Positions 4,001 to 64,000 of a stretch of DNA of 64,000 bases are shown here, piece by piece. Origin of the DNA: Microthyrium microscopicum (taxonomy: Eukaryota > Ascomycota > Dothideomycetes > Microthyriales > Microthyriaceae); the NCBI GenBank assembly GCA_010405405.1, contig MU004231.1, positions 4,400,689 to 4,464,688 on the forward strand, in the 5' to 3' direction. Within the stretch, counting starts at the first letter, position 1; each line of letters begins with the position of its first letter. The notes beneath the pieces are model-generated. The model searched no databases and was not told where the DNA came from. It saw only the letters and a list, made by a program, of their open reading frames with translations. The position numbers and the translations under genes are program-made.

Positions 4001-4379
4001 TAGCTAAGTTGTTAAGAGTAATTTCCTTTAAGAGAGAAGACTTTATTATAAACTTCTATAGACTTACTATAGAGATATAGGTATTCTACTACCTTCTTAC
4101 TTACTCTACTCTTATAGTACGCTATAAGAAGACTCTTTATTAATAAACTACTAGGTTAATATAAATAGTACCTATTCTCTACTATAACGAGATAAAGCTA
4201 AAATAGAGCTAAAGATAAGTAGAAGAAGTAGCCTTACTAAAGAAGAGACAAAGAGGAGTATAAGTAAAGAAGTAGACTTAATTTCTTAGAAGATTAAGTA
4301 TTAGTCTTATCTTAATACTAGTTCTTAGAATCTATTTTCTTTGCTTTAAACTATCTTTTATAAGATCTATAATACTAAA

Positions 4380-5745
4380 ATCTAAAACTAGAGATTTATG
4401 CTACTATTAGAGCTTACTATATATTACGTATAATTCTTATACTAATAGCTACGTTTAATCTAAATCTTTACTAATTTAACGTTATAAATACCTTCCTAAA
4501 TGCTATTCTAGATAAAATAGTTCTAATTTAATACCTTAAAAGCTTTAATATTTCTAGAAAGGTCTTACTACTTTGCTATACCCTCTATAAACTACTAAGA
4601 TCTCTATTATTATAGTATTAAGATATAAGAGCTACTCTCTATATAATAAAGTTTAAGCCTATTCTAAAAGACCCCTATCTTTTTAAATATATTTAGTATC
4701 TTATCTTTCTTTTTTATTATATTAATAACTTCCTCTTTCTCTTACTAAAAGCATATTAAGTAGAAGTAGATAAAATAAAATATAAACTTAATACGTACTA
4801 CGCTATAAGGAATTTAGGCACCCTAAAAAGCTTCTTTAATATTTAAATACTTTAAGATTAAGCTAATTAAAAGCTCTAGATTTTATAAGATTAGTATATT
4901 AATAAAATTAGTGCTAAATTCTAGCTTAATGTTATAAAGAAGACTAAATACGTTATTCCTATCTTAAATTTTATTAAACTTATTCTAAATAAAGAATAAA
5001 TATCTAAAGATTAAATCTATACTTTCTAAATGCGTTATAGCTCTATAATCTACCTTATAATAGTATATAAGCTAGATATCTATTATATAGCCTCTTATTT
5101 AAGCTATTTTAATTAGAATCCTTCTAAGCTTTACTACTATAAAATTAAGAGAACTATTCTATATCTTTAAGTAATAAAATACCTTACGCTTAAGTATTAT
5201 AAAACTACTAAAGTACTTACTACTAGCAAAGAAGTATTTTTTATAGCCTATAATACTATATTTATAAATAATTAAGAGACTTAAAGATTAACCTAAGGCT
5301 TTTTATTTAACCTATTTAGAGAACCTATTAACTAGTAATCTTTATACTAAAAGATAGTCTTAACATCTATAATAGAAGTAGAACTTCTATTCTTCTTAAA
5401 TACCTTAAAAGAGCTAATCTTAATCTAACGCCTCTTCTTATAGCTTAAGTTTAATCCTAATATTAAAATACTAATATTAAATAATAATACTTAAATAGTA
5501 GGTATTATAATAAAGTAGGCTTAGCTTTTATCTTCTAGATTAAAGTATGTTAATATATATTAGTTTTAGCTTTATTAAGAGGTTATAAAGGGCTATATCT
5601 CTATTAAATAAGTTCCTATAGGAGAGATACTAGTAGATAGTTTAATAAAAGCTTTCTCTCTATAAGAATATAAGAAGTTTAGGAAGATACTAAATTTAGT
5701 AGATATAAAGTACTTAGTACTAGCTTAAGAAGATTCTTTCTAGAA
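4380..5745 (+). mobile_element. Ty1/copia LTR-retrotransposon fossil (RT-RNase H part of pol)
   Basis: The plus strand recalls the copia reverse transcriptase: a segment resembling 'FDVxNAFLN' near 4460-4510, a 'LLxALYGLxxSPRLWY'-like stretch near 4560-4610, and a region like the RT active site near 4700-4740. It is followed by an RNase H domain and the conserved tail near 5490-5740 (the 'DGLTKAL...EF' region). The copy is broken throughout by heavy RIP, with dozens of breaks. Gag, protease and integrase parts and the LTRs could not be recognised. It lies in the same orientation as the gypsy fossil about 3.3 kb upstream. Confidence 0.6.
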
Positions 5746-6189
5746 CGCTATAAATACTTCTACTACTACTATAAATTGCTAAATCTCCTATATTTTTATA
5801 TAAGCTAGATCTTTTACGCTAAGGCTATCTAATAGTACTCTTTATTTCCTATTTTAACTAATTTTAATATTTTAGTAGCTTAGTTTTAAAAAACCTAAAA
5901 ATTAATATTCCTTTATACTTAATACTAAGTATATCTTAAAATCTATAGATTAGAAACTTAGGAAGTATAATAAAAGGTTTATTCTAAACCCTAAATCTAC
6001 GCTAGTTCTAATTTAGGATTAAAAAGTAAAAATACTAAAATTTAGCCTTTATTAGCTATTATATCTTTTTGCCTTTTCTACCCCTTTCTATATATTACTT
6101 TTACCTTTATTATAGCCTAAATTCTAGGCTCTAAGAAGACACGTTTTATGTTTTTAATAGGGTATAAATACTATAGTTATTGCAGTAGT

Positions 6190-11670: not shown

Positions 11671-14600
11671 TCAATCCAACTCTAAAGCACCAACTCCTAT
11701 ATCAAAAACGAAATGCTTTTCCGCCTCTTTCAAATCCATCGTTTGCTGAGGACAAAACAGTCCCACGTCTAGTCCGCCGTCTCTAACAGCAAATTCAATA
11801 TCAATACCAGGCTGTTTAACCATTAGCGCACGCTCATCGTGTTCTTCATCATCACATACCTGATAAACTCCATCATTTCCATCATTTTTTAACTCATCCG
11901 GCTCCGTAAACCCACTAACATCTCTCTCCACAATCTTCGCCCGCGCTGCCAACACCTCATCCATCTCCGCGCGCACCGTCACTGGCCTCTCCTCCCCTTC
12001 GCCTTCTTCAGCACCAAGGAAGTTTACTGTTGTTTCAATACATATACCCGTCCATTCGTATATCTGCCACATTGAAACAGTGCTGTTAGCTAGTTCACGA
12101 ATCTGCGCCAGGTCCCCTTGGATCTGGCGCGCTGTATCGACAATGCTGTTCGAGGGTGTGATTTTCAGGGGCAGGATGTTAAGTGTGGGCACGGTGCTGG
12201 GTGTGTCGGGACGGTTGGCCATGTAGATTCCTAGTACTACTGCTTCTCCGGGCTGAGTGGTGGTTTGTTGGTGGTGGTGGGCGTAGAGTGCTAGGAGGAG
12301 GGCTTGCAGGGAGATGCTGTGTTTTCTGGCGAGGGTTTGGAGAGGGGATATGTCTGGTATGTGGTTTGGTTTGAAGATTTCGATGGTTTGGCCGTTGAAT
12401 GGGGGCTGAAGTTTTGCTGGTATGGGTGGGTGGTTGGAGAGGTAGGCTGTCCAGAATGTTTTGGCGGATCCGATGTTGGGGCTTTGCGTTGAGTTGATGG
12501 CTGCTGAGTGGGCGTTGAGGTTGAACGGCGGCGGAATGGTGCTGGCGTTGAGTATATCTTCGAAACGGGTCATGAGGGTGGCCAGGCTGTAGAGATCGTA
12601 GAGGGCGTGGTGGATTTTGAGATGAAGGGTGAACTTCTTGTTCTCTGTTTCGTGGATATTGACTTGGTGTAGGCATGGCCAATTACTGCTCTTTGAGAGT
12701 TTGGAATCTCTTGGATGTTTTGTTGTACCTTGTGGTTTGCGTATGATTTGTAAGTACCCACGGCCTGAGGAGACGAAACTAGTCCTCAGAATTGGTTCGA
12801 GATTGGCCAATGTTGCCCAGGCTTGCTCGATTCTATCCATATCGACCGATCCTTGAACTTGATATTGGAACTCTGGGTAGAACAGAGCGCCTTTGGAGGC
12901 TTTCCAGATTTCTAAGAAGTATGCCTGTCCAGCACTGGCTTGATAGATTGCTTCGATATCATCTTCAGAAAGACTTGAATGACTGAGCGCTGCCTTCTTG
13001 ATATCGTCCGACAGCAAGTTTTCTTGTTGTGCTGCAATAGGTCCATTGTCAGCAGTTGTAGATTTTATGGCTTCCACGATGCCTAGAACTGTTGGATTTC
13101 GTAACAGATCACTCAGTCGCAGGTTGATATTCGACTTCTTCAGCTGAGCGCATACTTTGATGGCACTGATAGAATCTAGACCCAACGAGAATATTGACGA
13201 TGCCGATGAGATTTCTTGCTTGTCAACACCAGCCACTGCAGCCAAGGCCTCGCGAACGACATTTGCTAGAGGTGAGTTTTCTTGTTTGAGCCCGGCGACT
13301 GGTGTATCAGAGCTCATGTCTTGTAAAATCGAATCATTCAGTTCGAACTCGGGCAAGGCCGCGACAGATACCTTGTTTCCATCACCCCTGAATTGTAAAC
13401 AATCATTTTCGGGCGATTTAACCATAGCTTGTAGCACAATTTCAAGGCAGGATATGATTGACATCTCATCCTCAGCAAGCACTCCCTCTTGGCATGCTGT
13501 TCGCCATACCAAGCCGTCGGTAGTGATCTCAGCCTCGACACAGACAGCATACTCAACACTAGAGTGACTGTCCACAGACGTATAAAGATCGTCAAACTCG
13601 CTACTGCCAGCGTCCGGTCGAGCCTGGAACAAGAACAATGTATCAAATAGCGTCTTGCCCGAAAGATCCGCCAGTTTCTGTGCCTTACGTAGCGGGTATT
13701 GCTGATGTTGACGGATAGAGATGAGATCGTTCTGCACTTCACGGAGGATCTCAGCAAAAGTTCCAACAATGAACGATCTGAAAGCGATCGTGTTCATGGT
13801 GGGAAACATGACCCGTTGAGCTTCCTCGCTATCTCGGCAAGATAGGACGACCCCGTATATGACTTCGAGTACTTCGGCTTTAGATGCTAGAACGAGCGTC
13901 CAGCATGTTTGCGTCAGTGTATGCATCGTGATGCCTTGCTTTTTGCAGAAGGTGCGGAGAACTGGAACCGAGATTGCAGAAATTACCTCCTGGCGGTGGA
14001 CTCGACTTTGCTGTGCACCCAAGGCGGAGAGAAACCATGAGGGACTATCTAGCAAATAGCTACTCCAAAACGACGCGGCTTCAGACTCGGATTGTTGGTT
14101 GATATGTTCCAACACTGAGTCGTATGGGATAACTTCTACCTCCTGGTCGTAATATAATGCTTTGATGTATTCGTGCAACAGCAAGATTGACCATCCATCA
14201 TACAGAGTATGCGGAAGCGAGAGAACTAATAAATTCTGTTGACACTGAGTCACAGTTGTGAGTCGGAGGAGGGAATCGAAAGTTGTTGTGTCTTCAGCGC
14301 GATGCTTTATCTCGTCTAAGACCTTGGAAACGTCCTCGTCGTGTGAGAGCGAAAGTTCCCTCCATGCTATTGAGAAAGCAGGCAAAACAACTTGAGCATA
14401 GGTGCTGTCGATGCCTGGATCTAAAATGGCCAGGAACACAGTTCGCAGGATGTCATTATTGTCAATGGTAGATTGCCAGGCCGTTTTGAGTTTATCGAGG
14501 TCAATCCCAGGATTGATCTTTAGAATATCATGATTGTAGTACTGCGTAAAATTGGAGTTGATCATGGTTGAATACATTCCTTCCTGGAGAGGTGTCGCAG

Positions 14601-17600
14601 GAAAGCACTTGTACGAGCTACTTGCTTCCAGAACTCCAGAGGCTATGAGATACTTTTCTAAGTTGCCGCTCACTTGAGTGAGCGATGGCTTTTTTGATAT
14701 TCCATTCGATGGAAGTATAGCGTGCAATTGTTCCGTGAGTGCTTTTAATGTAGCGTATTGCATTATCATGCTCACTGGTGCATTGATGCCATGTTTCAAG
14801 AGGTTTGCTGACAGTTTAATGACATCGATGCTGTCCAAACCGAGTTCAAATATGGTCTGAGTTGAAGATATGCTGTCAACTTGAACCAACGCTACAGCTG
14901 CAATTTCAGATCGTAGCCGGCGTGCTACTTCGGTCCATTCGAAAGACTCAAGCAATGGTGCTTGATCCTCTGTAGCTCTCTTTGTCTGAGGGATTTCTTT
15001 GGTGTCTCCAGAAGGGATATCGAGCTTCTCGTTGATCGGGCGAGTAGCATCGCTGATCAATAGGCTTAAAGCTATTTCAAATCTGTCCAGTAGTCCTTCG
15101 ATCGTCCCAGTCGTAAAATACTGGCTTTGACCAGTGATACACACTGCGAGAGTCTCATCTCTTAGTTCGGCTTCGAAGTTCAAAGGGTACAATGCTCCAG
15201 GATTCTCATCTTCGAGAGTCCAAAAAGAGTTGTTGTCGTAGTTTTCAACCTCCTCATCTCTGGCCTGGAATGTGAAGAGGTTGTTGAGAGTAGTACTTGG
15301 ATTGGACCGTATAGATTTCAAGACATCTCGTAGAGGAGTTTGTTGGTAGGGGAGTGCTGAGACATTGAATTCATGGCAAGTTTTGAGGAAAGATTCCCAA
15401 GTATTGGTCCTCTGCATTCTTGGTCTGAACAAAATGGTGTTGAACATTGGTCCGATAACCTCAGAAGCTTCTTCAATGTTACCGGTTCGCCCAGAAACTA
15501 CCATTCCGATCACTGGATGGTATTTGTGATGTTCTGTCAGTACCACACTCCAGACAGCTTGTACAATGGCCTGGTAGGTTATGCCTAGTTGTCTCCTGAG
15601 TGTGTCTAGACCTTGGAGGTTTCCAAATACTTTTGATCGACACACTGGCTCATCGTTAGTTGGAGGCTCACTCAATCTTTCCAGAGAGACCGGAACTGGG
15701 CCATTCAGAACTTCTTTCCAAAATCTGTCACTGTCTGGTAGCAGAGTGAAAGCACCTTGGTGGAACAGATCATGATATCTAGGTCCGTATGAGATTTGAG
15801 GTTTCCCATCATATAGCTTTCGGACAAGTGTCAGTAGAAGACCAAGCGCTATCCCGTCGTAGATGGCGTGATAAATATGCAGGACCAGGTAAAGACAGTC
15901 CGAGCCTTCCAGTAGGACTAAAGATAATGGCTCATGCATCGTGTGTTGAAGGATGCTTGATTCAATCCATTGAGACCGAGACTTGGCAATGGCATCTTTC
16001 AATTCAGAATAGTCGCTTATGCAGATTTCTTGCCAAGGTAGAGCTTTAGACTTTAGAATAGCCTGAATCAACACCTCGGATTGAAGGAAGCATGTCCTCA
16101 AGATGTCCAGGTTTTGGTATGCATCATTCCAAGCTGTTCGCAATCTAGTCTTATCGATGTTTTCTGCCAGTTTCATCTTGAAGGTAACAAAGTAATGATC
16201 AGTTTTGCCACGTAATGTTTCGGAGACGATTCCTTCTTGTAAGGCAGTGCACGGAGTGACAACTTTCAGATCGGAAATCTTGATACCCAAAGCTCTCGAT
16301 GTCGTGGATACGTATTTGTGATGGAATACCGTGGCTCGATGCTTCTCTCTTAGAGAGTTATTACGGTCTGCTGAACTTTGGTCATGGCTTCGAAGCGCCT
16401 GGGAAAGACTTGAGACTACAGGATGCTGCAGCATCAATGAGGGTGATGCTAAATCGTATCCTGATTGCTTCAGTAAGCGTGATAGTCGAATGGCTGATAT
16501 AGAGTCTAGTCCCAGCTCAAGTATGTTTGAGGATGGAGTGATGTTTACTATTGGAATTGAGAAATTTTCTGACAGCACACTAGCAATGCGACTCTCTTCA
16601 CTGTTCAACCTCGTCCTTATATCAACCCCAAAGCTTTGGATTTGCTCTAAACTGGTCAGCTCAAATAGTGCAGTCAGTTTCTTCTTGTCCACTTTGTTAT
16701 TTGGAGTTAATGGTATGGTAGATACGGGCAAGATGTGAGTCGGTACCATGTAAGGTGGGAGCTTACTTCTGCAAGCTTCGAGGATATCAGATACTACAGC
16801 TCGACCTTGCTCATCGAATGCTAGCGATTGAGGATGCTTCCAAGTCGTTTTTACTGTTGCAATGACGAAGGACACTAATTGTTGTCGCTGCTGCTTGGGG
16901 TGGCGCAGGACAAAGGTTGCAACATCGTGAACTCGTGAAAAACTTTTGATAACATTGTCGATCTCGCCTATCTCCAGTCTTTGGCCTCGAAGTTTGATCT
17001 GGTCATCTTTGCGACCCAGAAACTCGTATGTGCCATCATGAAAAAGTCGAACCAGGTCTCCTGTCCGGTATACTCTTTCTCCAAAGCGTCCCAGAAAGGG
17101 AAACTTGACGTCAGTCAGTCTCTCGTTATTAAGATAGCCTTTACCAACGAGCTTCCCAGAGCAACACAGCTCACCAACGCCACCTCGAATAACGGGAATG
17201 TCTGTACCAGGCTTAAGGACAAAACAGCCGACGTTGTCAAATTGATGTCCTATATTCGAAGGCTTGCCATTCTCAGGCACACGACGAAACATTGTACAAC
17301 CAATGGTGAGCTCTGTAGGACCATATCCATTGAATATGGCACTTTTGGCTCCCCAAATATCCAGTATATCCTGGCGAAGAGCTTCTCCTCCAGTGATAAA
17401 TACACCACCGCAGAGCGAAGGGATCTCGTCGGGGCTAGTCAATGTTGCAGCAAGACTCGGAGTCAGGTCAAGGTGCGTAATTTCTACCTTCTTGATAAAC
17501 CCTTCAATATCTTCAAGAATAAGATCTCGTGGAGCGGAAACAACACGAATGCCTTCTGACCAACTCCAAAACTGCTCCATGACAGACACATCAAAGTGGA

Positions 17601-20600
17601 ACGAGGCAAATTGGAGCCATTTTGATCTTTTGTTCCAACGGCCGGCGAATTGGATTGAGAATGCTCGCATGGCTTGCACGGCATTTTGGTGTGTCAACTC
17701 GCAGCCTTTCGGAAGACCTGTTGAGCCGCTCGTGTAGAGGCAATAACATAGATCGTTTGGAGATATAAATACTGCTTTGGGCTTGGGATCAATATTATGT
17801 GCCGGCAAGCTGTCTGCTAGGATGACTTTGACCGAGTTCAAGTCTAAAAAGTCGAACTTGTGCTCCATAGATTTGGTGGTAAGTACGATAGTTGCTCCAG
17901 AATCACGAATGATATGCTTTTTTCGTTCGTCTGGCGCGTTTGGGTCAATAGCGACATAGCCATATCCTGCTTTAAGTATACCCAGAATTGAAAAGGAAGC
18001 TTCGGGGCATTTCTCAAAGCATATTGCCACCATGGCACTTTTCCCAGTAACTGTTTTCTGGACGTGACTTGCGATGCGATTGCCTTCAAAGTCCAGTTGG
18101 GCATAAGTCCAAGTCTGGCTCTCAATATCAGGACCATGGATACTGGTGATAAACTCCAAGGCTATATTCCGGGGGTTTAACTCTGCTTGCCGTTCCACGA
18201 ATTGATGCAGTAAGGATACTGGGCTTGAAAGTGCCTTGACCTTTGGAGGAAGAACAGAAATAAGACTCTGGTGGAAATTCACTTCTCTAGAATCATTTTG
18301 GTCGAGAAGCTGATAAAATAGTTGGTCAAACTGCCGCAACATGATTTTGGCTTGCTTTACTGGTAATTTTGCTTCATCGAACGTGGCTCTTATCAAGAGC
18401 TCACCAGAGCGACGTGGTTCCAACTCAATAGAAACAGTGTACTCATCAGTGGCAACTTCCTCCACAAGCTTCCAAGATACACTCTCAATATCTAGTGGCA
18501 ATTGCTGAATTACAACTATAGTATCAAAGAGGGGTTCATTTGGAAGTCCAGCCCAGTAAGATATGTCCTTGCTCTGGCAAAACTGATGTCGACGTATCCC
18601 AGAATTGAAATTCATGATGCTTTTCAAAAGCTGTTCATTGTCATTCGTAACTCGACATGAAAAAGGTACTGTCGTGAGACAGGGAAAAACAGCGTTCTCG
18701 GCTTCGGGAATCACATCTCTTCCAGAGAGAACAACACCGAACATGACTACTGGTTCATTTGTATATGCAGAGAGTATATGAGCCCAGGTAGCCTGAGCAG
18801 CGGCCTGCAACGAAATCCCAGCAGCTCTCAGTGAACCGTTCAGCTGATCCATTGTCTTAACTGATGTTATTTCCTCCATTTTTGTGTTGGATGGATAGCG
18901 AAGTGGTGATAAATCCGGAAATCTGGTTGGGCCTGCCTCTCCGATGGAGCCTTCGCCTAGATGCTCTCCCCAAAATGTAGCATGAGAGCTAGACTTGCTC
19001 AAAGTGTCTTCTGCTAGACTACCTGCTATGATTGAAGAAATGATGAGATCACTGGAATCTGGAGCAGGCAGAGGCAAGTTTTTCTTCGTGAATAGCTCTG
19101 CTAGGTCTCTCAAGAGCATTTGCAGACATTGAGCATCAAACAAAGCATGCAACAGACCCATGTGTAAATGCAAGCGTTGCTTTGACTTAGTGATCATATA
19201 CCTCCAAGGGGGACGGGTAATGTCCTGATGACACCTTGCAATCGTGTCTTTTCGCCATTGAAGAATCTGTTCTCTGGTAAGCAGTAGAGCTGTATGATTC
19301 TCTGGAAAATGGTCAATCTGTTGGTAAATAACCATGGAAAATTCAGATATCTTGCTTTGGTTGGGAACAAATCCAGTTCGCAAGATAGCGTGCCTGGCAA
19401 CCAATTGTGTAAATGCTGTCACCACATATGACACAGTTGTCCCGTGTGGTATTTCGAATGTCATACAGTTGAAATAACGATTCCCAGTTCTAATGAATTG
19501 TGCCAGAAGTCCTGATTGTGCTGGAGTGCAAGGCCTGATGCTTTCTATACGTTTGTCGAATTGAAGTGGACTCAACGCTAGCGTTTTGGTGACATTGGCT
19601 TTAGACGCCTCCTCGTACTCTGCCAGGTTGAATGGTAATGGGGAAGGCTCTGGCTGATTATCGAGTCCTTCATCCATGAGCTTTGCCAGATCTCTAAGAA
19701 CCGGTCTTTCAAGAATATCTGAGCTTGCTACTCTTCTGCCAGTAGCCTTACTAATCTCCACCGCAAGCTGTATGGCACCGATACTGTCCACTCCTAGGTG
19801 ATAAATGGATGTCGAAGGACGTATATTACTATAAGAAACTCCGGTGAATGCTTGTAATATGCTGAAAAGACTTGTCTCCGCCGTAGACAAGGAAATAAAC
19901 GGGGTATCTTGGGTATTTGTTGAATTTGTTGATGGCTTAGAGTATAAAATAGAGGCAAGTGCCGGGTATCTCAAGGGGGTATCTTTTTTGGCGTTCATCA
20001 TTGAAGAAGATGGGAATCTTAAGAAGTTATTAAAAATGGAAACAAATGACTGGCACATTTCGGTGGCACAATGGGGAGAGATAATTTGCCTAAAGAGTCA
20101 GTTTAGGGATATATACTCATATGCGTTCTTTTTAACTTACGAATCATAATGCAAGTTCAGGGATAAAGAGTTGCTCGAGGCTTGGGGAACGACTTCAAAC
20201 ACTAGAGGGTACTAGAATTTTGTCAATAGTTGTCTTCTCGGATTGAAGAGGAAACTGACTGCCATGTTTCCCACATCGGACTGAAGAGTCCAAACCGTTT
20301 CATCGAGTATGTAAGATTCATGCTGTACGAGTAATAAAATGTTGAAAAGGCCAGCCTGGGAAAACCCCAAGTGAGACTGTATAGCGCGAAGTGGAGTCAA
20401 TTGATATTCCTGTGATTCAATTGAAAGATTCTGCAGATCTTGGATCAAACTCAGTGCTTCGGAATATTCAGAGATATCGACTCTGACGGGGATAGTGTTG
20501 AAAGTAGGAAACACTAGGCGCTCGAGGCCATCCAAAGGGTATATACGACCACTAACAATAGTGCCAAAACAAATGTCGTCTTTTCCGAATACAGATCCAA

Positions 20601-23600
20601 CAACATTGGCCAAGGTTGCTTGGCTTGCCGACAGCAGTGAAGCAGAGATATCATAGCTCTTTCGGTTGAACAGGCTTAGGTCAATAATATTAGCTGTAGT
20701 AGACTTGTATGGTTTTCTGGTTTCTGCTCTGAAAAGTGTTGGAGAAAATGAATCCAGTTTTTTAGCCCAGTATTGAAGATTCTTTTGCGAACGCTGAGCT
20801 TGAATACGATTCAAGAATGGCTCAACCGGAATAGCCTTTGGTAAAGGCGTCCCTCGATAGACCATTTCTACCTCATTGATGACTTGTTGTATTGCTGTGG
20901 CATCATAAACAGCATGATGGCATGCAAACTGGAGATGGTCGTGAGAGCCTATTTTGGCGAATCGTAGATACACTGGAGGCAAGTGGTGCTCTAAATTTCT
21001 GAGGACCAGTATCGGCAAATTCCTTCCGAGTTCGCTATTCATCACTTCACTGTTGGTGTTTTCATCCCCATCAGCCCAGTGATCCGACCAGCCGTCCAAA
21101 ACTACCTGGACAAAAGGATAATCTAGATTGCTGGACTGAACAAACGCCGTGCGAAATATTTCATGCCTCTGGAGAACCACAGTCCACGCTGCCTTAAACC
21201 TCTCGACTGAGCCAGTCAAATGAAACTGCATAACGTTGCAATAAGCATCGGATGATGAATCGGTAGCTGACAGCATGGCTTCTTGAAGTGGTGTACATGG
21301 CAACATCTTGACAACACGCAAATCGTTCTCGCTGAAGAAGGATAGGACTTGTTGTTTGTGATCGTCAGAAAGAAATGGATCGACGAATGCCGGTTTGCTG
21401 TCCTGTAGGCCATCTACCGAGCTTTGAAGAGCCTTTGCCAGCTTTCTGATAGTTGGATTTTCGAGGATGAGAGCAATAGACGCGTTTTCATATCCCAAGT
21501 CGCGCAGGCTTTTTGCAAGGGAGATGGCTTGTATCGAGTCAATTCCGTATCTTGACATAGGAGCGGCACTGTTAAACTTCGATATTGGCGTTTTCGTGAT
21601 CTGTTGAATCAATCGCCATATCTGATCCTCTTCTAGGGTGCTTTGATACTCGATATCTTCCAATGCGGTGTGTTCTATTACTGTTGAGTCCATATTGATG
21701 TTACCATCGCGAGACATGATGCTCGCCCAGTCATCCGATACCAACTCTGGTGGGAGATCTAGAACCATGGTATTTGGGGTCTTTACGAATAGCGCAGCCA
21801 GCTTGTCAACATGCTGAAGAAACCAGGAAGCTGAGTTTTGATCGAAAACAGAGGTATCATAGACAAGTTTTCCAGCTAATTCTGATTCTTGCGGCTCGAT
21901 CTCAAGTGTAAGCTTAAATTCCAAATGGTCATTAGAGCTCTCAACAATAGCCACATCTGATTCTTCGATATCATTGCTGACTAGTGATTCCTGCCAGATG
22001 AACAAGGCCTCTGTAATAGGCTTGCCCAGTGGAATTTCGGCGGCTTTTTTAAGATCACTCATTGACGCTAGGGAGTTCTCAACTAGCCTTCGATTCAAGA
22101 GATGTAACCTGGCTAGGAGATCAATGACCTCTCTTGCATGATTTATGTTGATTCTTAGTGGCAGTGTTGTCATACAAGGTCCAACCACGGATTCCAGTCC
22201 CGATATTGGCAGTGTTCGACCAGACGTGACAGCACCTAGGATAACCTCGGCCTGTTCGACTTTGGCAGCAATAAGGCAGATAAATGCAGCTTGAAATACG
22301 CATTGCGGGGTGACACCCATACGTGCTGTGTAAGAGCGCAGCTTGTCTAGGGGAAGGGAGAAGGATGTTGTTGCCACTCCCGGTTCTGATGATTTTGTGG
22401 GAGATGAGCTTGATATCAGCGTTGGTGAGCACTGCGAAAGATGCCGCTGCCAGTAATCCAACGAAGGGCCTTTATCTGCTGTGTGATAATACTCCTGGAC
22501 AACGCCATAAGGGACTCGGGGTGCTAATGGCAGGCCGGAGCATAGATCTTGTAGGTCCTTGAGAATGAGATCCATTGACCAGCCATCAAAGCAAGCATGA
22601 TGTATTGTAAGGTGGACACGAGTAGAACCTTGTCTTCGTTGGACCCAAAATTGAACGGGCAAATCCAGTGATAGTGTTGTATCATTTCCTTCATCAAATA
22701 AGATCGGCACTGAGGTTGCCTGGCGAACCAATTGCACAAATGGAAAGCCATCCACTGGTGTCTCGGTAAATCCAGAACGTAGTATTTCATTCTTCTGAAC
22801 CAAATCTTCAATGATTGATTGTATTTCTGGATTTGATAGTGTACTCGGAAACTTGATTGTGAACCAATTCCAGTAGGCGTCGGGATTTTTGAGAGATTCG
22901 ATGAGCATTCCTAGTTGTATTGGCGAGCATTTCCGGACACTTTCAGCGTCAGTCCAGGTGGTCCGGAGGTGCTTCTGGTATTCCGGCCACTCTTCCAGCC
23001 TTTCGAGACTTGGGCTGGGCTTCTCCTGTGTGAGAGTGGGTCTGATGTCAGACTGAACCATTTTGGCAATATCTCTGACATATCTACACTTCATCAGCTC
23101 AACAGGAAATACCTCGATTCCTGCATCTCTAAGTTTGGATGCCACTACGATTGTTAACAGAGAATCGATACCAGCTCCAATCAATGATGAATGGACATCA
23201 AATTCTCTCCCAATGCATTCTTGAACGATGCGGTGAATCTTGCGACTATTCTCATCAACATTCTCGTCACTGCTTCCTGATTGTCCAGTATGTTGTCTAT
23301 ACTGGGTTTCAAGTGCTGTTTTATCCACTTTACCAGAAGACAAATGCGGAAAATTTGGCAGAAGGACTACATCTCCAGGAATCATGAAAGATGGTAGCCA
23401 TTTCTGACAAGCTGCTGTTATATCCTCTTCACTTACATCCTTTTCAGCGCAACAGAAAAGTACAAGATTGTTAGAAATGATACTTGCGGCAGCGACTTTA
23501 CAGCCAGGAGCGAGCAAGGCGGTTTGTTCAATTTCACCCAATTCTACTCGCTGCCCTCTCAATTTGACTTGACCGGTTGAAATCCGACCCAAACACTCAA

Positions 23601-25350
23601 TTGAGCCATTTGGCAAGATGCGAGCTTTGTCACCAGTTCGATAAAGTCGCCCCAATTTAGGATCATCAATAAAGGCTGCACTTGTTTGATCCGGTCGATT
23701 GATGTATTTGTCTGCGAGTTGAGGACCACCAACGGCAAGTTCACCCACAAACCCAACTGGAAGAACTACCAACTCATCGTACAACTCCGAGCTTGCAGGG
23801 GCAACAACGCAAGACAATACGGAGTCCAGGGGAAAGCCAATGTTGCCAACTCTATATGAAGACTTGAATGCTGGTTGTAGGGTACAGTGGATGGCTGCTT
23901 CAGTAGGACCATACATGGCCCAAAGTATCGGTTCTTGAACATCACTACCACCAAACTCTTCAATCACAGGCTTGGTAAGCATCTCGCCAATCGTCAGCAG
24001 TAGCTTGAGTTTTGGCACTGCCGATCTGCGCTGTAGTAAAGAGCTAGCAACGGTTGGTGTCAATTCCGCCGCATCGACATCAAGTGCGTTCATGAACCCA
24101 GGCAAGTCATTGAGAAGAGTTCGCCTATCACAGCATATCAGAGTAGCTTGTCGATAGAAAGTGAAGAATATCTCAAAAAGTGAAACGTCGAACGTGGGAG
24201 CTGCGAATTGGAGAAACCGATAAAATTTGGGAATGTGTCGATCGTGGGCTAGTAAACTTTGTGTGGCTGCTCGATGAGAAATTGGCACGCCTTTGGGTTT
24301 GCCAGTGCTTCCACTGGTGTACATGATATATGCAGTTGATTCGGTGGTAATCTGATAGACAGGTTCATGACTTTTGCTCGCTGAATTGTTTTCATGTTTG
24401 TCGACTATCAAACAGGGGCAACCAAGGGACTTTAGACGATCGGAACTTGCTTGGGTAGTCAGCACCAAAGGCGCAGAGATATCGGCTACTATAAATTGTA
24501 GTCTCTCATCTGGCGCGTCCGAGTTGATAGGACAGAATGCACATCCACTCTTCATGATGGCTAGCTGGGCAATGTAAAGATCGACGGATTGCGGCAATAA
24601 TATGGCAATCGATGGCTGAGAAGAAAAAGATGCATGCTGTAATGAGGCCTGTATGCGCGCTGCAAGCTGGTCACTGCGATTTTGTAGTTCATGATATGAT
24701 ACCACCATCCTTACACCATCAGCATCTTGATACTCTATTGCACAGTCTGCTCCGTCGTGATCGACCAAATCATGGAGCAACTCCGGGCCTAGTAGAACTT
24801 GTGGTCTGGAATTGAGAATGGCTGAGCCTAGACTCTTGAGATGAGATATTGGTATATCTTGTGACCCATGTTGTTGAATCCATTGCAAAGCGAGACGTAA
24901 GTGCTCTGATATCTGTTGAAGATGATCGAGAGGAACTATTCCATTACATTGAATCTTGATTTTCTGAGCCTTCACGTCGCAGAGTATTGCTAGAGAGACT
25001 TCTTGCTGGGCTTGAGGCTGGAAGAAGATACCTGTCAACCTGCTTTGGTAGCTTTTCGTATTTGATGGGTTCGATTCCAGTTTCTCCAGGGTCCATGGAT
25101 TTGTTGTGATCTTTACGATTCCAGCGTCCGTGAGAAATATCAGCTCTTCGTTTCCTGTGTATGACTTTAGGACAGAAGCCCAAGCATAGAGAAGTCGCTC
25201 CTCATCATCGGACTCGAATCTCATGTAGACCTCTTCGCGTCTCAAGGCTCCATGATCTTCCGGTTCTTCAAGAAAAAGACTTGGAAAGCGCGTAGGACCC
25301 GTAACGCGTCCCATTACATGATGGTTCGGCTGAGAACCCATGACGCACAA
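11671..25350 (-). CDS. Ferrichrome-type siderophore nonribosomal peptide synthetase (SidC/Sib1 family)
   Basis: Three exons (25350-20260, 20211-20141, 20089-11671) give 4526 residues. Introns of 48 and 51 bp fall inside the second condensation domain; without splicing the locus looks like two NRPS genes. The order read from motifs is A1 (YTSGSTGKPKG ~347), T1 (~723), C1 (HHACFDG ~922), T2 (~1270), C2 (HHAVYDA ~1480), T3 (~1822), C3 (HALFDA ~2037), A2 (YTSGSTGLPKG ~2511), T4 (~2914), C4 (YHAIYDG ~3129), T5 (~3474), C5 (PHTLYDG ~3684), T6 (~4027), C6 (HHALYDL ~4221). There is no thioesterase. Repeated terminal T-C pairs mark the intracellular ferrichrome/ferricrocin synthetases, which build cyclic hexapeptides from hydroxyornithines and small amino acids. 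By eye the specificity residues read about DVFELIMIH for A1 and DVMDIGGIG for A2; the latter resembles hydroxyornithine pockets. The family's usual middle A domain is missing. The start at 25350 precedes the typical GPTRFP N-terminus; ATG 25341 is an alternative. Confidence 0.93.
20090..20140 (-). other. Intron 2 of the siderophore synthetase
   Basis: The 51-bp intron has donor GTAAGT, branch CTGAC and acceptor TTTAG. Splicing gives LNLHYDSQIISPHCATEM, the typical end of a C domain. Confidence 0.88.
20212..20259 (-). other. Intron 1 of the siderophore synthetase
   Basis: This 48-bp phase-0 intron has donor GTCAGT, branch-like TTGAC and acceptor CTAG. The acceptor TAG itself would be an in-frame stop. 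Splicing joins ...SDVGNMA to YPLVFEVVPQ, a normal condensation-domain stretch. Confidence 0.85.
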
Positions 25351-26489
25351 GTCGCGAGCGAATTTGAAGTCAACATATATCTCTCATAAAAAAATGAAAC
25401 ACTGCAAAAGGTTCTTGCAAAGCTTTCAGTTGTCTAGGTCCATAATAAAGTGCCGACGTCGGCATGCTTAAATTCAAGGCGAAGCAATAATCATGCTTCT
25501 GGCCAACAATGGCAGGCAGGAGGCTTCGTTTTCCAGCAAATAAGTGGGGGCGTGACGACAAGGACAAGCCTTGACTAACAAAAGTCATCACGTCATAAAA
25601 AGCAAACAAGAAATTGGATTCATGGCATAAATCTAGTCAATTTCGTCTATCTGTAGGAACTTGTATGCTTTATCAAATTCAGGTGCTACTAGATATCTGT
25701 AGTTGTTTTGACTGCTAGCATTAATAGCTAGGGCGCCCTCTACGCTGTCAGTCCCGCCCAAGAGAGGGCGGCTCACAACATTCTAACTCCTTTGTTATAT
25801 CTCGTCAAATGCTGTGAAGTTATATATTGGATTCTTCAATTCTGCGCAGAGTAGTTAAAATACCAATGATAACACTAAGATAAACCGACTATCTTTTTCG
25901 CATTGCTTTATGGTTGAACAGAACCTTGGTTAGTGAAGACCATTATAGCTCTTGCCCTTCATTGTGATTGGCTGTGCTGGCTAGAAGACAGCCTTGCGCC
26001 CAGCCTAATGGTCTAATTTAGGCCATCGGTCCCAATTTCTATAATCATGTTAACGATTTGAACCAAATTGATGGCACCAAATGAGCGACAAACCGGAGTC
26101 ATAGATGAAGGTGCCCACGTACCAAATATAAAACTTGACCTCGACTGCACCTTAAATAGCTGGCTCGATGGTACTGACTGTTTGGGCCAGTCGCTCTTCA
26201 CCTTTTATGCCAGTCACTGCCATATTGTGCATCCATCTTTCACTTCTACACCCAAGCATACTGCTATCTTAGACTTTTGCTTTGCGCATAACCTTCTTTA
26301 TTATTAAACTACATACCAACATAGTGCATCATCAACAACCCGCATCGCATTTCTTAATCAAGCGATCTATCTGCAGCAATAGCTTGCTACCGTCTTCTCC
26401 AAACAAGTCTTGTCGCAAAGCGCAGTAGCCCGCGATAGCATCGCCAAAACTAAGTCCAGCAGAGCAACACCAGCAAGACACCAGAGACC
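25351..26489. other. Divergent promoter region between the synthetase and the 26490 gene
   Basis: No gene was recognised. The notable content is a cluster of three GATA-type sites at 25867-25894, about 520 bp upstream of the synthetase start. Confidence 0.6.
25867..25894. promoter_or_regulatory. Cluster of three GATA-factor sites (HGATAR)
   Basis: TGATAA at 25867-25872, AGATAA at 25878-25883 and, on the minus strand, AGATAG at 25889-25894 lie within 28 bp. Iron-responsive GATA repressors (SreA/Urbs1/SRE) bind such cores upstream of siderophore genes in fungi. The extended ATCWGATAA form is not present. Nitrogen or light GATA factors could also use these sites. Confidence 0.35.
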
Positions 26490-46191: not shown

Positions 46192-47772
46192 TTATTGCAT
46201 AATCTCTTGATAGTCTTGGCTTCCTTTGAGACATTTCGATATGTGGATCAAATGTCCTCGTTCTCGTCGGACGTAAGCGGCGAAACATGCTGCTCCTGTT
46301 ATCACTGCGCCTAGGCTGATGAAGACTGGTATCAGGAAATCTTTTGGCTGAGGAAATATCACGGTCGATGTGAAGGCGAGAAGTTCAAAGAAGTTCTGAA
46401 GAGCTTGTTCGGAGGTGGAGAACTCGCCACGCTTGTCTTCCGCTGTAGCCTGTAGATCAGATGATTAGCTGATAGAGCAAGTCAAAGGAACGCTCCAACG
46501 TACCTCTTGGACAATATCTTGCACTGCCAGATCTACAGCCCAAAGTCCCAATCTGCTCAAGATAATTCCGGCCGTCAATGCCGGGCCAGCTCGCCCTGGT
46601 GTGCTCTGCAGCAAGGCGAATGCAAACACCGCTCCCGTCAGAGACAATACTTGAAAGTTTATTGACCACAGACCAGCTCGGACGTCCCCCAAGTGCTTCA
46701 TGAGTGGTGGCGCAAGACAGGTGGCAAGAAGCTCAGAGATGACGGCTGCAAATCGGAAGAGACTGACTGAAACAGCGTCGAATCCATTGGAGAGCATATA
46801 TGCTTGCCATTGGGATGCGGTGGAGAGAACAGTGAGATAGAGCAGTGAAAGTGAGAAGGACGGTAAGAAGGCTGGTGAATGCGTGTAAGTTTTCCAGGCT
46901 GATAAGCAGTTGGATCTGTGGCTGGTGCCCTTTTGATGCTGCTGTTGTGAGCTTCGAGTTGCTCCTTCAGAAGCTTCCTCGAGTTCTACAGTTTGTCCTA
47001 GACTGTCATCTCTTTGTTGCGCTCTCACTGCCAGTTCTGGAACGGCACTGTAGACGCGAGCAATAGCAATGTATTCTGCAAGTACCGAGCATGTTGTTAG
47101 ACCCAACAACACTAGAACCGATATCAGGGTTGAGTATGCCTGGATCAATGAAATAAACACTGGCGCTGCTAGTTTGCAGAATAAGTCGATTCTTCGCATT
47201 GCAGCATTTAGCTGTGCTCTGTCGATGTCCAGGCTTGTAGCTATGACAATTGCCCCTGCCCAAAGTTAGCCATTACATTTTTCTCTAGTACCATGGCACT
47301 TACAGTCTCTTTCAATGGCTACAGTATTTGCAATAGAAGCGAGTTTCTCAACACAGGCCAACAGCACAGTGATTGAAAAGCATACTCCAAAGAGCAACCT
47401 TGGTAACCCATGATCATTGTTAGAATTGGTAATCATCAACAAGCCAAAAATTGCACAAGAAGTAGCGACCGGAATCCTCTGCCATATTATCGATGCTCGA
47501 ATAACAACTAGTCGATTTGAGTGATCAATATAGCTTCCGATTTTGGATGAAAGTACTGTGGCCGCAAATGCGCGTACCAATGCATAAACTGAGGAGTAGA
47601 AAAGTGTGCCTGGAGTAATACTGATGATGAACAAAATTGCGCCAAATTCGAAAGCTCTTGAGTTCCAGACGGATAGGAAATGAGAAACATAGAGTCTTCG
47701 AGTTGTGGTAGAGACTGAATGCTCTCTGTGGGACAAAGCATCGTCATCGAATCGATCTACCATCCCGTCCAT
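46192..47772 (-). CDS. Ferroportin-family iron exporter (SLC40)
   Basis: Three exons (47772-47304, 47255-46504, 46449-46192) give 492 residues, close to family length. Diagnostic stretches are near the N-terminus: LYVSHFLSVWNSRAFEFGAI, then SVYALVRAF, IGSYIDHSNRLVVIR, WQRIPVATSC, then VEKLASIANTVAIERDW, and after the first intron ATSLDIDRAQLNAAMRRIDL (split over the junction), the most conserved ferroportin motifs. About ten membrane segments are visible. In animals and plants the family exports ferrous iron (or other divalent metals) from cells or into organelles. In fungi it is less studied, and plasma-membrane or vacuolar sites are both possible. The last exon adds a membrane segment and a basic tail. 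Two introns (48 and 54 bp) hide the full length. Confidence 0.9.
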
Positions 47773-48204
47773 TTCACTGAAATACAGCTGGGGTTCGTGT
47801 TGATCAAACTGCGTCTTGCTCGGACTAGACCAAGAAGCATTTCGGAGTTAATTTATGTCGATAGTAGAAGGTCTTCGGTTGCAAATACTATGTACATAAT
47901 GTATGTAGAACTTGAAGTAGGGTTTAAGCGAAAGCGGCGGATATAATCGTATGGTCAGCACACCATAACTTCGAGTTTACTCAAACTCTTGGTGGTTGAA
48001 AAAATAAAAGCAAGACTTTCGTTCGAAGAATAATGGGCGAGTTTTAACTTCCAGTAAACGTAGCACGTAAAACTAATTTATTGCATAAAAGAACAAACGC
48101 TGCTTCAATTTCGTGTTTTGCAATCGATGTCAATATTGTTGTCGCTGGTCTAATGAATACATTTAGCTAAGAGCAATGGCTTCCTTCAGAAGTTAAACAT
48201 CCGT
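47773..48204. other. Intergenic region upstream of the ferroportin gene
   Basis: The ferroportin promoter lies between two minus-strand genes. It is AT-rich, and no clear regulatory cluster was seen. Confidence 0.5.
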
Positions 48205-54182: not shown

Positions 54183-54593
54183 GTCTTCCGAGTTATTCTT
54201 GTCAGGTTAATCGTATCTGGGGTTTTGGGAGAATATGCTGCTAAGAACTTGAGATAGCTGGTTTCGTAGAAGTTTTGGTGTTGTATGGTAAACAATCAAG
54301 ATGAAAGCTCCAAAACACCATGCCTTTCTGGGCTAGCTCGGGTTGATGGGCTGACGCGCGGCTAATCCTTGCGCCCTGACCCCGTAAGTAAGCGCCATCC
54401 ACAAGGCCGAGTTTACATCTTGTTCCAGTAGAAGGAATAAGGGGGATTTGATTCACACCAACCTCCGCCTCTTACATCTTCGCTGTTGAACGGTATACTG
54501 TCGCTGCATAAATACAACCCTCTTCCTTATCCAGAATAAAGAGAGCCTGATCTCGATGTCGTATTGCAAGCGAACGTCGTAACCTCTGCCGCA
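54183..54593. promoter_or_regulatory. Divergent promoter region of the EF-hand and Afi1 genes
   Basis: 411 bp lie between two start codons pointing away from each other. No TATA box or known site was picked out by eye. Confidence 0.45.
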
Positions 54594-57107
54594 ATGGCTG
54601 CCCCCGTGGCCCCGCAATTATATCGCCAGGCATCTTCAGCCTCCAATGGATCTGGCCTGCGAACGAATGGACAGAGAAACTTTGGAGATCAGGATGGCTC
54701 GCCCCAAGCTCTATCACAAAGAGGTTCCGCCCGGTCATCAATCGTGACTCCCGCGCCCTACGATGGCCCGCACCTTCGATCGCAATACCCTGCCAACTCG
54801 ACAGAGAATCATGTCGAGTATATCCTAGTGGCATCTTTCGATATCGACCGTGGTTCGATCATGGAGCATCAATACCCTGGGCCCATTTCTGGAGATGAGA
54901 ATATGCTAGCAGAGCTCATGTTGCCAGATCAGGCACATGTAAGAAGTATGGACTGGACTATCTTCTTCCTTCACAAGGATACGACCGCTGAGGAGGAAGC
55001 AAGAGAGGAAAGAAAACGCGTTAGAAAGATTAAGAAACGGCGGCGTGAGTTGGAAAAGGCTGGCGAGCCAATACCCGACGACGAAGATCTTGACCTCGAA
55101 GGTCTGGATCTTGGAGACGATGATGATGAAGATATGTACTCGGAGTCTACTGCAGATGATTCCGAAGGGCCTCCATTGATATATGTTCTCAACCTTGTGA
55201 ATACAAAGCAAGATCAAACGGTGAAGAGGCGAGTTCTCATCATCATATCACAATCTTCGCTAACGAGAACAGAGGTGCTATTGTCAAAGCGATGGCAATA
55301 TGTACGAGGCATTCATTCCTCCACATATACAAAGTAAGAATGACTATCAAAATGTGTTTTCTCTCACTAATCAGATCAGCCGTTATTACTTCTTGCGCTT
55401 GAAGAATATTTCAGAGCGCCGGTGGTAGAAACATTAGCATCTCTATACAACGCCGTCAACTCCATGGACTTGTCGCTAATGCCTCGACTTTCAAGCCTTG
55501 AAAGAAACATATTACAGACGAGCGATGTCAAAGACATGTTTGTAGAGAAATTCTCTGTTATGATTCAGCAAAAGATGGCAGATGATGAGCATCGACTCTC
55601 GCAGAACTCTGTGCCCTCGTCCACGGATTCACCAACTCCTAAAGGCAAATATCAACCACCAAGAGATACACACGAATTTGAGTCTCGTGTGCAGTATAAT
55701 GGGGTGCCGGTACCTATCAAAGTGCCAGTCGCTATTACCCCTGAAACTGTTGGCGACTTTTCTCTAGTAAAGCTTATATCGACATTTGCAACACCACACG
55801 CTTCTTCTCCACAACCATTTACTATTCATCCTCACTTGACCACATCAGGGCCATATACTCATCCAATAATTGTTTTGATCAATGCCCTTCTCACCCAGAA
55901 GCGTATCATATTTCTTGGTCACAATCAGCCCTCCGGAAGCGTTGCTGAAGCGGTACTAGCAGCTTGTGCTCTAGCGTCGGGTGGTATATTAAAGGGGTTT
56001 ACACGACATGCGTTCCCTTACACAGATCTCACTAAAATCGATGATCTTCTCAAAGTTCCAGGCTTTATTGCTGGTGTCACAAATCCAGCATTTGCCCACA
56101 AACCCGAATGGTGGGATGTGCTCTGCGATTTGCCGACTGGCCGGATGAAAATCAGTCCCAAAATTGAAGGCGCACCTGTCACAGAAGGATTACTGTTCTT
56201 CCAACAAAATGGACACGGAGCACATATTGCAAAAGAACATTCGGTACTGAACGGAGATAGCAAAAGCCATCCATCGAATGATCCTACTGGTGACACTGTT
56301 TTCATGGATTCAGTAATGAACTCCATTTCAAATCGTCATGGAGAACCGGCTGTGCGAAACAAGTTTAGAGCTTGGGTCCATCGTTTTACACTAATCGCGG
56401 CCGCTTTTGAGGAAGTCGTTTATGGTGCCTCTGCTCTCAATATCGGTGCTGCGGAAACAGATGAAGACATGTACAACTACGGGGTTGGTGGTCACGGCCT
56501 GGTCTGGGCAGACGAACCCACACGGATGCGAGAGATACAGGCGAATGTCGGAAGAGTTGAAGGTTGGCGCCAAACTCGCTCATATTACTCTCTCATTCGC
56601 GATCTGGCTAGAACGTGGGAAAAAGGAGAATGTGTTAGGGGAATCGACGTGGGCTATCAGGTCGACCGCCTCAGAACATTGCGCGTTGGTGATGCCGGCG
56701 CTGCGGATATCTACATGGCTTTAGCCAGAGCCGTGGAACGTGCAGGCGTTGATTTTGACGACCCAGATTATGAAAACCCCCTGGACCCTGACGACCCGGA
56801 TAGTGAAGATTGGCAACTAGACCCGGAAACAGAGGTGAGGCTACTCAAACGGGAGAAGGCTCGTCATGAAGTCATCAATCAATTGCTCTGTGTCATGCCT
56901 GAGAATAACGGTGGCTTGTTCTATATAGGGCTGGGCCTGTTCCACAAAGACGTGGCAGTCAGACAGGCAATTGTTGGCCTCCTTGAGCGGATCAATGCCC
57001 ATGAAGCCGGTAGGCATTTCTGGGCCCAACTTGGAAGATTTGCGAAATTGGCTTTCTTTCGAGTTAAACGCGACGGCGAAAATCCTCAGAATAGAGCATC
57101 TGGTTGA
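54594..57107 (+). CDS. AFI1: Afi1-type Arf3-interacting polarity protein (DENN-like)
   Basis: Three exons (54594-55228, 55273-55333, 55380-57107) give 807 residues. The Afi1 docking region begins near residue 75 ([36 protein letters not shown]) and is interrupted by a charged, acidic insert (~130-200). The SPA/DENN-like part follows ([64 protein letters not shown]). Afi1 binds Arf3/Arf6 and keeps the polarity axis of growing cells. Intron 1 (44 bp) uses a GC donor (GCGAGT) with branch CTAAC and acceptor ACAG; no GT donor keeps the frame. The ATG at 54594 is in good context (GCCGCAATGG). Confidence 0.9.
55229..55272 (+). other. GC-AG intron of the Afi1 gene
   Basis: The 44-bp intron has donor GCGAGT, branch GCTAACG and acceptor ACAG. 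The phase-2 join gives ...[12 protein letters not shown]. Every GT donor nearby breaks the downstream frame. Confidence 0.8.
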
Positions 57108-57674: not shown

Positions 57675-59005
57675 TTACTTTGGGCAAGGTCCGTTACCAT
57701 CGTGGTTCACGTTTGTGGGGCAAGCATCTGGGCACGTTAGAATTGGCGCCAGCTTCATCGCTTGAGCAGCGGCTGATGGTCCGCTGATATGCTATTTGAT
57801 AATGCTTCATCACAATAACAATTCAGAAGATAGCAGGCTATGCCAGCGCTGATGACAATCGTGTATAAGATGTCTTACCATGACGTTTTTGGACCATTGC
57901 CTTTGGTGGGGGATGGTCATCGCCATCTGGGCCATGAGCAGCTCTTTTCGCAATCATGACGCAAGGACCATTACCATCGCTGCAGGAGGATTAGTTAGAG
58001 TATGTCCCAACACTGATCGCAATGGAAGTTGTCAAGCTGCCATGCTGCCAAGCTATTCTGTCTCTTTTGCAGAACAACAATGTAGCATGTCGCAAAAACC
58101 AGCGGGATGAGAACTTACTGTCTCTTCATGTTCGTGGGGCAAGCATCATGTCTCTTCATAATCTGGACGCAAGGCCTAGCACGTTGTCAGAATAAGATCA
58201 TGAGAAGGAATGACACAAGTTGACAAGCTTTGGGGAAACAAGGCAAATGTTACCAAATTGACACGCGCTGGGAAGACCAGGCGGCCAACTCGATACCATA
58301 ACTTGCTGAAAAATCATCCCAAAGTGTTTTGGTATGAGGAGACTTACCCATTACCGTCGTGACGCTTCATGTTTGTGGGGCATGCGTCGTGGCGCTTCAT
58401 GACCTGGACGCAAGGCCTAGCACATCGATTAGCAAAGATTCGCCAATGTTCACTGATAAAGTATTGTTGGAAACCAACACGCAAGAAAATGATGTTTTTT
58501 TCCTCCCGGTACGAGATCTCTCACATGTTGCAGTAGCCATAGAAGTTTCATGGGAGCCGCAACATGCTACAACATATATCAAAAGAAGATAAACTTACCC
58601 ATTACCGTCGTGACGCTTCATGTTTGTCGGGCATGCATCGTGACGCCTTGTTAGGGGCACGATATGGGGGCAAGGCCTGGCGGATCCGTTAGCAAAGGTT
58701 TACCAATGTTTACGCAAAGTTCTTCGTTGACAAATGTTCACCGACAAGTGTTGTGTTGCTGCAAGTCAGAATGCAAAGAGAAGACTATTTCTTCCTCTCA
58801 GCAAGACTGTTGCGCTCATAGCGATCACAAAGTGTTGTGAAAGCCGCAAGATGCCATGGTATCGGGACAAGAAGTTCTTGTACGGGGAGACTCACCCATT
58901 GCCATCGTGACGCTTCATGTTTGTTGGGCATGCATCATGAGGAGCGGGAGCGGCGAAGCTGCCAGCAGCGAGAACGAAGAGGACGACTTTTTGGAAGGTG
59001 TACAT
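57675..59005 (-). CDS. Secreted multi-peptide precursor with Kex2-type sites (repeat protein)
   Basis: Six exons (59005-58896, 58676-58599, 58416-58348, 58175-58119, 57979-57879, 57727-57675) give 155 residues. Each of the five introns (139-219 bp) has a GTRAG donor, CTAAC/CTAAT/CTGAC branch and YAG acceptor, and all phases agree. Residues 1-19 are a signal peptide (MYTFQKVVLFVLAAGSFAA). Five units follow, each HDACPTNM-KR-HDGNGPC plus a variable end, separated by dibasic sites at 31, 47, 57, 70, 80, 93, 103, 116 and 136. Ten cysteines, two per unit, are the only ones. Cleavage by Kex2 and removal of KR would release HDACPTNM four times, HDGNGPCVQVM, HDGNGPCVQIM, HDGNGPCVMIA, a longer first variant, an acidic spacer (118-135) and a C-terminal fused unit. 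This is the layout of fungal Kex2-processed repeat proteins (pheromones, RiPP precursors, repellents). The peptides match none I know. Confidence 0.88.
58348..58895 (-). repeat. Tandem exon-intron repeat units inside the precursor gene
   Basis: The exon 2 and exon 3 regions repeat with a period of about 260 bp (exon 3 to 4 about 240 bp). Besides the exons, intron ends are alike: TTAGCAAAGRTTYRCCAATG follows both exon 2 and exon 3 on the plus strand, and AGCCGCAA..ATGC precedes the exon 1 and exon 2 donors. Whole exon-plus-intron blocks were therefore duplicated. Confidence 0.75.
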
Positions 59006-63929: not shown

Positions 63930-64000
63930 ATGGTTTCTTCAAAGATCTTTGCCGCTGCCGCGCTTGCGAGTATCGCGTCTGCCATTGACCATCAGGTCAA
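63930..64000 (+). CDS. Secreted protein, 5' end only (cut by window edge)
   Basis: The ATG in context AACATCATGG starts MVSSKIFAAAALASIASAID, a textbook signal peptide with basic n-region, Ala/Leu core and an ASA cleavage site. Only 23 codons are present before the window ends, so the mature protein is unknown. A TATA box stands at the expected distance upstream. It is the nearest gene to the peptide-precursor locus on that side, about 4.9 kb away, and need not be related. Confidence 0.7.
   Translation, partial: MVSSKIFAAAALASIASAIDHQV

Follow-up and report, generated by a model that had tools for sequence, protein, structure and literature searches.

A putative KEP-type multi-peptide precursor from Microthyrium microscopicum with predicted Kex2 sites between paired cysteines

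The closest described counterparts of the gene reported here are the KEX2-processed repeat proteins (KEPs), which are defined in the accessible text of a 2019 survey by a signal peptide, the absence of a membrane helix, at least four fragments upon cutting at KR or RR, at least three similar repeats and a motif that occupies at least 15% of the protein (PMC6339444). According to the same text, two types of motif occurred in 77 of the 1193 KEPs of that survey (PMC6339444), and the available parts of another survey report 7878 KEPs, including 2560 stand-alone ones (PMC7329392). The precursor shares with this class a signal-peptide-like start, four or more KR/RR fragments and a repeated motif exceeding 15% of the protein. 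Cutting at KR/RR yields 10 fragments (minimum, four), including four HDACPTNM and four HDGNGPC fragments (minimum, three similar repeats), whose similarity was judged by eye and the first of which carries a leading PAP in this split; the octapeptide fills 20.6% of the protein (4 x 8 of 155 residues; minimum, 15%). The precursor differs from the KEPs in its two alternating peptides, in the dibasic site that lies between paired cysteines and in its uncut C-terminal unit. A Kex2 site between two conserved cysteines, together with an uncut C-terminal unit, was not encountered in the accessible text of the two surveys (PMC6339444, PMC7329392). The earlier note on this DNA had suggested a new class of peptide, a claim that does not hold, since KEPs with thousands of members are already described in those texts (PMC6339444, PMC7329392); the precursor and its relatives would instead form a new, apparently undescribed family within the KEPs. 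If true, a conserved family with a Kex2 site between two conserved cysteines would be added to the secreted peptides of fungi.

Other known systems share part of this organization. The dikaritin RiPP precursors (ustiloxin, phomopsin) are also repeat precursors with Kex2 sites; their cores hold an aromatic residue, whereas the precursor has no aromatic residue in its cores and no UstYa match nearby. The yeast killer toxin K28 is larger and is not built from repeats; its Kex2 cutting leaves disulfide-joined chains, as is proposed below for the precursor. Like the precursor, the ascomycete alpha-pheromone precursors have Kex2 sites, two cysteines per unit (Leotiomycete and Sordariomycete types) and, ahead of their first core, xP dipeptides, but they carry a WC...GQ.C core, which the precursor lacks, and in four of its five units the cysteines lie on separate predicted peptides. 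The general core pattern, C-x3-GQ-x-C, is likewise absent from the spliced precursor; the earlier note had set the gene apart from the WC..GQPC alpha-pheromone. Examples of alpha-pheromone cores appear in the accessible text of the 2019 survey (PMC6339444).

Structure of the precursor gene and protein

The precursor gene lies on contig C2 of a genome of 36.9 Mb in 20 contigs, within the window, i.e., the whole stretch of 64,000 nucleotides that was analyzed. It occupies 59005-57675 on the minus strand, and its six exons (110, 78, 69, 57, 101 and 53 bases for exons 1 to 6) give 468 spliced bases and a translation of 155 residues, under a splice model drawn from the sequence alone. All five introns are of the GT...AG type, with the donors GTGAGT, GTAAGT (three introns) and GTAAGA and the acceptors CAG or TAG, and a CTAAC-like motif (CTAAC, CTAAT or CTGAC) is located 9-15 bases 5' of every acceptor. 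The coordinates previously given (57675..59005) proved exact, and the exons of 53-110 bp with canonical splice signals were all recovered. A TATA-like stretch was observed by eye ∼130 bases upstream of the ATG.

The division of the repeat units among the exons, all on the minus strand, is regular. Exon 1 (58896..59005) encodes the signal-peptide-like start, the sequence APAP and unit 1 as far as the Gly codon preceding PC, and is followed by intron 1 (58677..58895; 219 bases, GTGAGT...CTAAC...CAG). Exon 2 (58599..58676) completes unit 1 (PCPHIVPLTRR) and carries unit 2 to the same Gly codon; after intron 2 (58417..58598; 182 bases), exon 3 (58348..58416) completes unit 2 (PCVQVMKR) and carries unit 3, again to the Gly codon preceding PC. 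Intron 3 (58176..58347; 172 bases) leads to exon 4 (58119..58175), which contains the end of unit 3 (PCVQIMKR) and the HDACPTNMKR of unit 4. Exons 2, 3 and 4 are all of phase 2-2, and their skipping would change the number of copies without a shift of frame. Beyond intron 4 (57980..58118; 139 bases), exon 5 (57879..57979) encodes DGNGPCVMIAKR, then the AAHGPDGDDHPPPKAMVQ-KR peptide and the start of unit 5, and after intron 5 (57728..57878; 151 bases), exon 6 (57675..57727) provides the remainder of unit 5, HDACPTNVNHDGNGPC-PK, without an internal dibasic site, and the stop codon.

Because exons 2, 3 and 4 share phase 2-2 and introns 1-3 interrupt the units at the same position, within the Gly codon preceding PC, the array looks like a series of tandem copies of one exon. 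A repeat search matched introns 1 and 2 at 75% over 56 bases, 37 of them intronic (at the 3' end of each) and 19 exonic. In a comparison of the five introns, which retain little similarity, none of the 10 pairs scored above the best of 200 simple shuffles, and introns 1 and 2 came closest (30 versus 32).

The protein consists of a hydrophobic start, four copies of HDACPTNM-KR-HDGNGPC, the peptide AAHGPDGDDHPPPKAMVQ-KR and finally HDACPTNVNHDGNGPCPK. Nine dibasic sites (8 KR and 1 RR), ten cysteines distributed as two in each of five units, and four identical HDACPTNM sequences were counted in the spliced translation, as the earlier note had reported. Its further statement that all five units read HDACPTNM-KR-HDGNGPC is correct for four of them; the fifth is HDACPTNV-N-HDGNGPC (HDACPTNVNHDGNGPC), whose two cysteines are not separated by a dibasic site. 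The peptide inventory of the note was incomplete in the same region, as it missed both the uncut last unit and the HGPD peptide AAHGPDGDDHPPPKAMVQ, which stands before the last unit and whose HGPD part recurs in the relatives.

The N-terminus reaches a hydropathy peak of 2.56 at residues 7-17, which is consistent with a putative signal peptide, MYTFQKVVLFVLAAGSFA (58952..59005, minus strand), and past this segment the highest 19-residue hydropathy mean is -0.3. Signal peptides are cleaved according to a small-x-Ala rule, by which MYTFQKVVLFVLAAGSFA would be removed to leave AP-AP ahead of HDAC. Beyond the signal peptide the precursor contains no Trp, Phe or Tyr.

The four 17-residue units encode the same protein sequence in spite of at least 11 base changes, all of which are silent. 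When all five units are compared and the KR/N columns left out, the tally is 11 silent changes versus a single replacement (M to V). The peptide cores look selected on this account, with a probability of ∼1.6e-6 under a null of 24% silent changes; the null is a rough one, in which changes are treated as independent and the KR/N difference of the fifth unit stands outside the count. The lower value of 1.7e-7 applies to the four units only, which were picked for their identity. The KR codons inside the four units are AAGCGT (three) and AAGAGA (one), while the other dibasic sites are encoded by AGGCGT, AAGCGC, AAGAGA, AAAAGA and AAACGT.

Relatives of the precursor

Among 5.8 billion proteins, the spliced precursor as a single query retrieved one relative, P0001 (E 2e-5). 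A profile of the two added P0002 (1.2e-14) and P0003 (1.8e-4), and a profile of the four added P0004 (E 1.4e-3), with scoring confined to the 8000 candidates that had most words in common with it. These four were all of the matches listed at E values up to 1, 10 and 10 in the successive searches. All are proteins predicted from metagenomes, in two cases on contigs shorter than 1 kb, and P0001 and P0004 seem to have been translated through introns.

On sequence grounds, the precursor and its four relatives define a family, characterized by units of the form HDxC...HDG, an acidic peptide with HGPD and a C-terminal V-N-HDG unit that stays uncut. Eleven complete units are present, five in the precursor and two each in P0001, P0002 and P0003; both cysteines are retained in all 11 and a dibasic site separates them in 7. 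The uncut C-terminal unit, with V-N ahead of HDG and no dibasic site, occurs in all three proteins that show one (the precursor, P0001 and P0002), while the C-terminus of P0003 differs and the unit of P0004 is broken off. The HGPD peptide follows a dibasic site, either directly or past AA or SP, in four of the five proteins (not in P0003). Individual members depart from the pattern in that P0001 has no dibasic site within its units and P0004 carries HDC instead of HDxC. P0001-P0004 contain two units each, below the limit of three repeats of the 2019 survey, and families of two units per protein may for this reason be under-counted in KEP surveys.

In the reverse direction, the precursor gene was the best place for P0002 in the 36.9-Mb genome (E 0.0024; 2 candidates scored), and P0003 gave no match there, the precursor gene included. 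A second locus for P0002, on contig C7, was matched once (E 1.4), versus twice for the precursor gene, and was judged to be due to chance. The precursor matched only itself in its own genome (6 exon matches), with no paralogue. A DNA pattern for HDG[ND]GPC, which misses intron-split copies, found the precursor gene and, with one mismatch, one place on contig C1 that encodes DDGNGPC.

Outside this genome, the 158 family-pattern matches among the GTDB contigs of prokaryotes included none that was confirmed, and among the 74 pattern matches in viral contigs one locus (L048), in a contig with frames read as phage-like and in a frame that overlaps one of these, was judged a chance occurrence. Solved structures gave nothing meaningful with the precursor (best E 0.15-0.33), and Rfam gave no match at gathering score. 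The Pfam entry PF25314 (nematode TNF-receptor-like) scored 36.2 bits on the precursor versus a cut-off of 27 and was rejected as a chance sum over the repeats; none of the four relatives matches it. Searches of a paper library with family sequence strings and by concept retrieved no paper; the family may be an unnamed entry in the supplement tables of the KEP surveys.

Predicted processing and alternative explanations

The residues that follow the dibasic sites provide an indication of how the precursor would be processed. When removal of xA or xP dipeptides is allowed for, His is the first residue at 20 of 24 sites (18 directly and 2 via trimming), a share that is partly search-made, as the relatives were found via shared words such as KRHD and HDGDG. 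The count amounts to 9 of 9 sites in the precursor, 2 of 3 in P0001 (leaving out one site upstream of its likely Met), 3 of 4 in P0002, 3 of 5 in P0003 and 3 of 3 in P0004, and at the four sites without His the first residues are Q, Q, D and Q. Just past the likely signal peptide, the first HD is preceded by APAP in the precursor and by LPRP in P0001 and P0002, while LPKP precedes QDDM in P0003. The genome contains genes for a Kex2-type P domain and for the DPPIV family. Together with the repeat units and conserved dibasic sites, the His starts support the earlier designation of a Kex2-type multi-peptide precursor, and cutting of this type is considered probable.

In the proposed pathway, the signal peptide would be removed in the ER, and the two cysteines of each unit, which flank KR in four units, would form a disulfide before cutting. 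In the Golgi, Kex2 would then cut at all nine dibasic sites, as suggested by their conservation, and a Kex1-type carboxypeptidase would trim the basic residues. A Ste13-type dipeptidyl peptidase would remove AP-AP ahead of the first HDAC and AA ahead of HGPDGDD, and every peptide would therefore start with His. The products would comprise four two-chain peptides, in each of which HDACPTNM is linked to a tailed HDGNGPC, together with an acidic peptide, HGPDGDD, and a loop, HDACPTNVNHDGNGPC(PK), that stays uncut; HGPDGDDHPPPKAMVQ is among the predicted peptides, its ends being fixed by the predicted cuts.

Pairing of the two chains within units, which the earlier note had also suggested for CPTNM and HDGNGPC, is proposed tentatively, at slightly less than even confidence, because of the two-Cys rule: both cysteines are kept in every complete unit, with or without a dibasic site. 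The cysteines could instead be free, serve as metal ligands or pair between units. The K28 killer toxin offers a precedent, since Kex2 cutting leaves its chains joined by disulfides, according to the accessible text of the source (PMC5666379). A putative role of the peptides as extracellular signals or interaction peptides is the likeliest use and is put forward with similar reserve. As a whole, a secretory KEP precursor that releases disulfide-joined two-chain peptides and one uncut loop, as signal or interaction peptides, is the explanation toward which we lean, by a little over even confidence.

The same N-terminal His and Cys residues, and the Met/His-rich stretches of the relatives, could alternatively mean that the precursor releases extracellular ligands that buffer, scavenge or withhold copper. 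The His, Asp and Cys residues of HDxC and HDGDGPC are candidate ligands, and Met-rich spacers were observed in P0001-P0004, with 7.5-10.4% Met and MxM or MxxM motifs (GMDMP, HHMDMG, MDHHNMQM, MAGMHM); each content has p <5e-5 versus an assumed 2.2%, in a post hoc test on chosen stretches (the first 115 residues of P0004). The precursor itself, however, has no such spacer and lacks MxM and MxxM, with 5.9% Met (p 0.011), and the Met-rich character is therefore not a conserved one. Toward the telomere, a cupredoxin that starts at 63930 is the next gene found, but it is 5 kb away and the link is putative. We regard the copper explanation as a serious alternative, if an unlikely one, and its more specific form, a Kex2/Ste13-processed family of copper ligands with His-N-terminal peptides, a two-chain Cys pair and, in some species, Met/His-rich peptides, as somewhat less probable again; if it held, fungi would possess a copper buffer or scavenger that is both gene-encoded and secreted.

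The Kex2-processed precursor favored here could also be a lineage-specific mating pheromone of the alpha type. A Ste2 receptor is encoded in the genome (E 9e-67), alpha-pheromone precursors are KEPs, and the xP-xP ahead of HD fits Ste13. At the places listed for three patterns of the canonical C...GQ.C core (6 of 6, 4 of 4 and 100 of 158), no tandem repeat was seen; 29 loci of the third pattern and 10 of the first two were read in context, so a canonical or intron-split gene may have been missed. The units lack W and GQ and give two peptides with one Cys on each. Repeated Ste13 dipeptides, a trait of alpha-pheromone precursors, were not found: xA or xP follows one of the nine Kex2 sites (AA before HGPD), in addition to the APAP after the signal peptide. 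A pheromone of this kind is accordingly held to be improbable.

A precursor of a modified RiPP, whether of the dikaritin type or made by another set of enzymes, would share with ustiloxin-type precursors the signal-peptide-like start and the repeated cores between Kex2 sites, and the accessible text of one survey reports a DUF3328 gene in the vicinity of 22% of KEP genes (PMC7329392). In this genome the UstYa (DUF3328) profile gave at least 24 exon-level matches. None of those listed lies at C2 4.40-4.495 Mb, the stretch that runs from C2 4,400,689 as far as the telomere, and the nearest one listed on C2 is at 0.67 Mb. No recognized tailoring family was observed in 25 of the 53 long window frames (Pfam), and an aldo/keto reductase is ∼47 kb away. 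With no Tyr, Trp or Phe past the signal peptide, these results agree with the earlier dismissal of an ustiloxin-type RiPP and render this explanation very improbable. Equally improbable is a small, secreted, Cys-rich protein or effector that functions in its uncut form. The ten cysteines, the signal-peptide-like start, the lack of a detected paralogue and the position ∼35 kb from the telomere could be cited for it, but against it stand the retention of dibasic sites through silent codon change and the pattern of His starts, both of which fit cutting.

Genomic surroundings

Toward lower coordinates, the closest gene is one for an Afi1/SPA polarity protein (frames 54540-57107), and no closed frame of 120 residues or more was detected from 57108 to the end of the window. 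A TTAGGG array ends contig C2 at ∼94.4 kb in window coordinates, ∼30 kb past the window. The plastocyanin-like cupredoxin (63930 to beyond 64000) appears to be secreted and has a Ser-rich tail. At the opposite end, positions 1-6000 form a very AT-rich block (GC 22-24%, versus 39-57% elsewhere), perhaps a degraded repeat block.

In the search for the alpha-pheromone, small Cys-rich, secreted-looking frames were also noted at two loci, L037 (C11:914116) and L081 (C2:2985077). Within the window, a ferroportin-like (FPN1) gene is encoded on the minus strand in two frames (46468-47847). Two adjoining long frames on the same strand (11671-25383) contain condensation, adenylation and carrier domains and represent a nonribosomal peptide synthetase, in which the frame rich in carrier and condensation domains is reminiscent of the ferrichrome-type synthetases.
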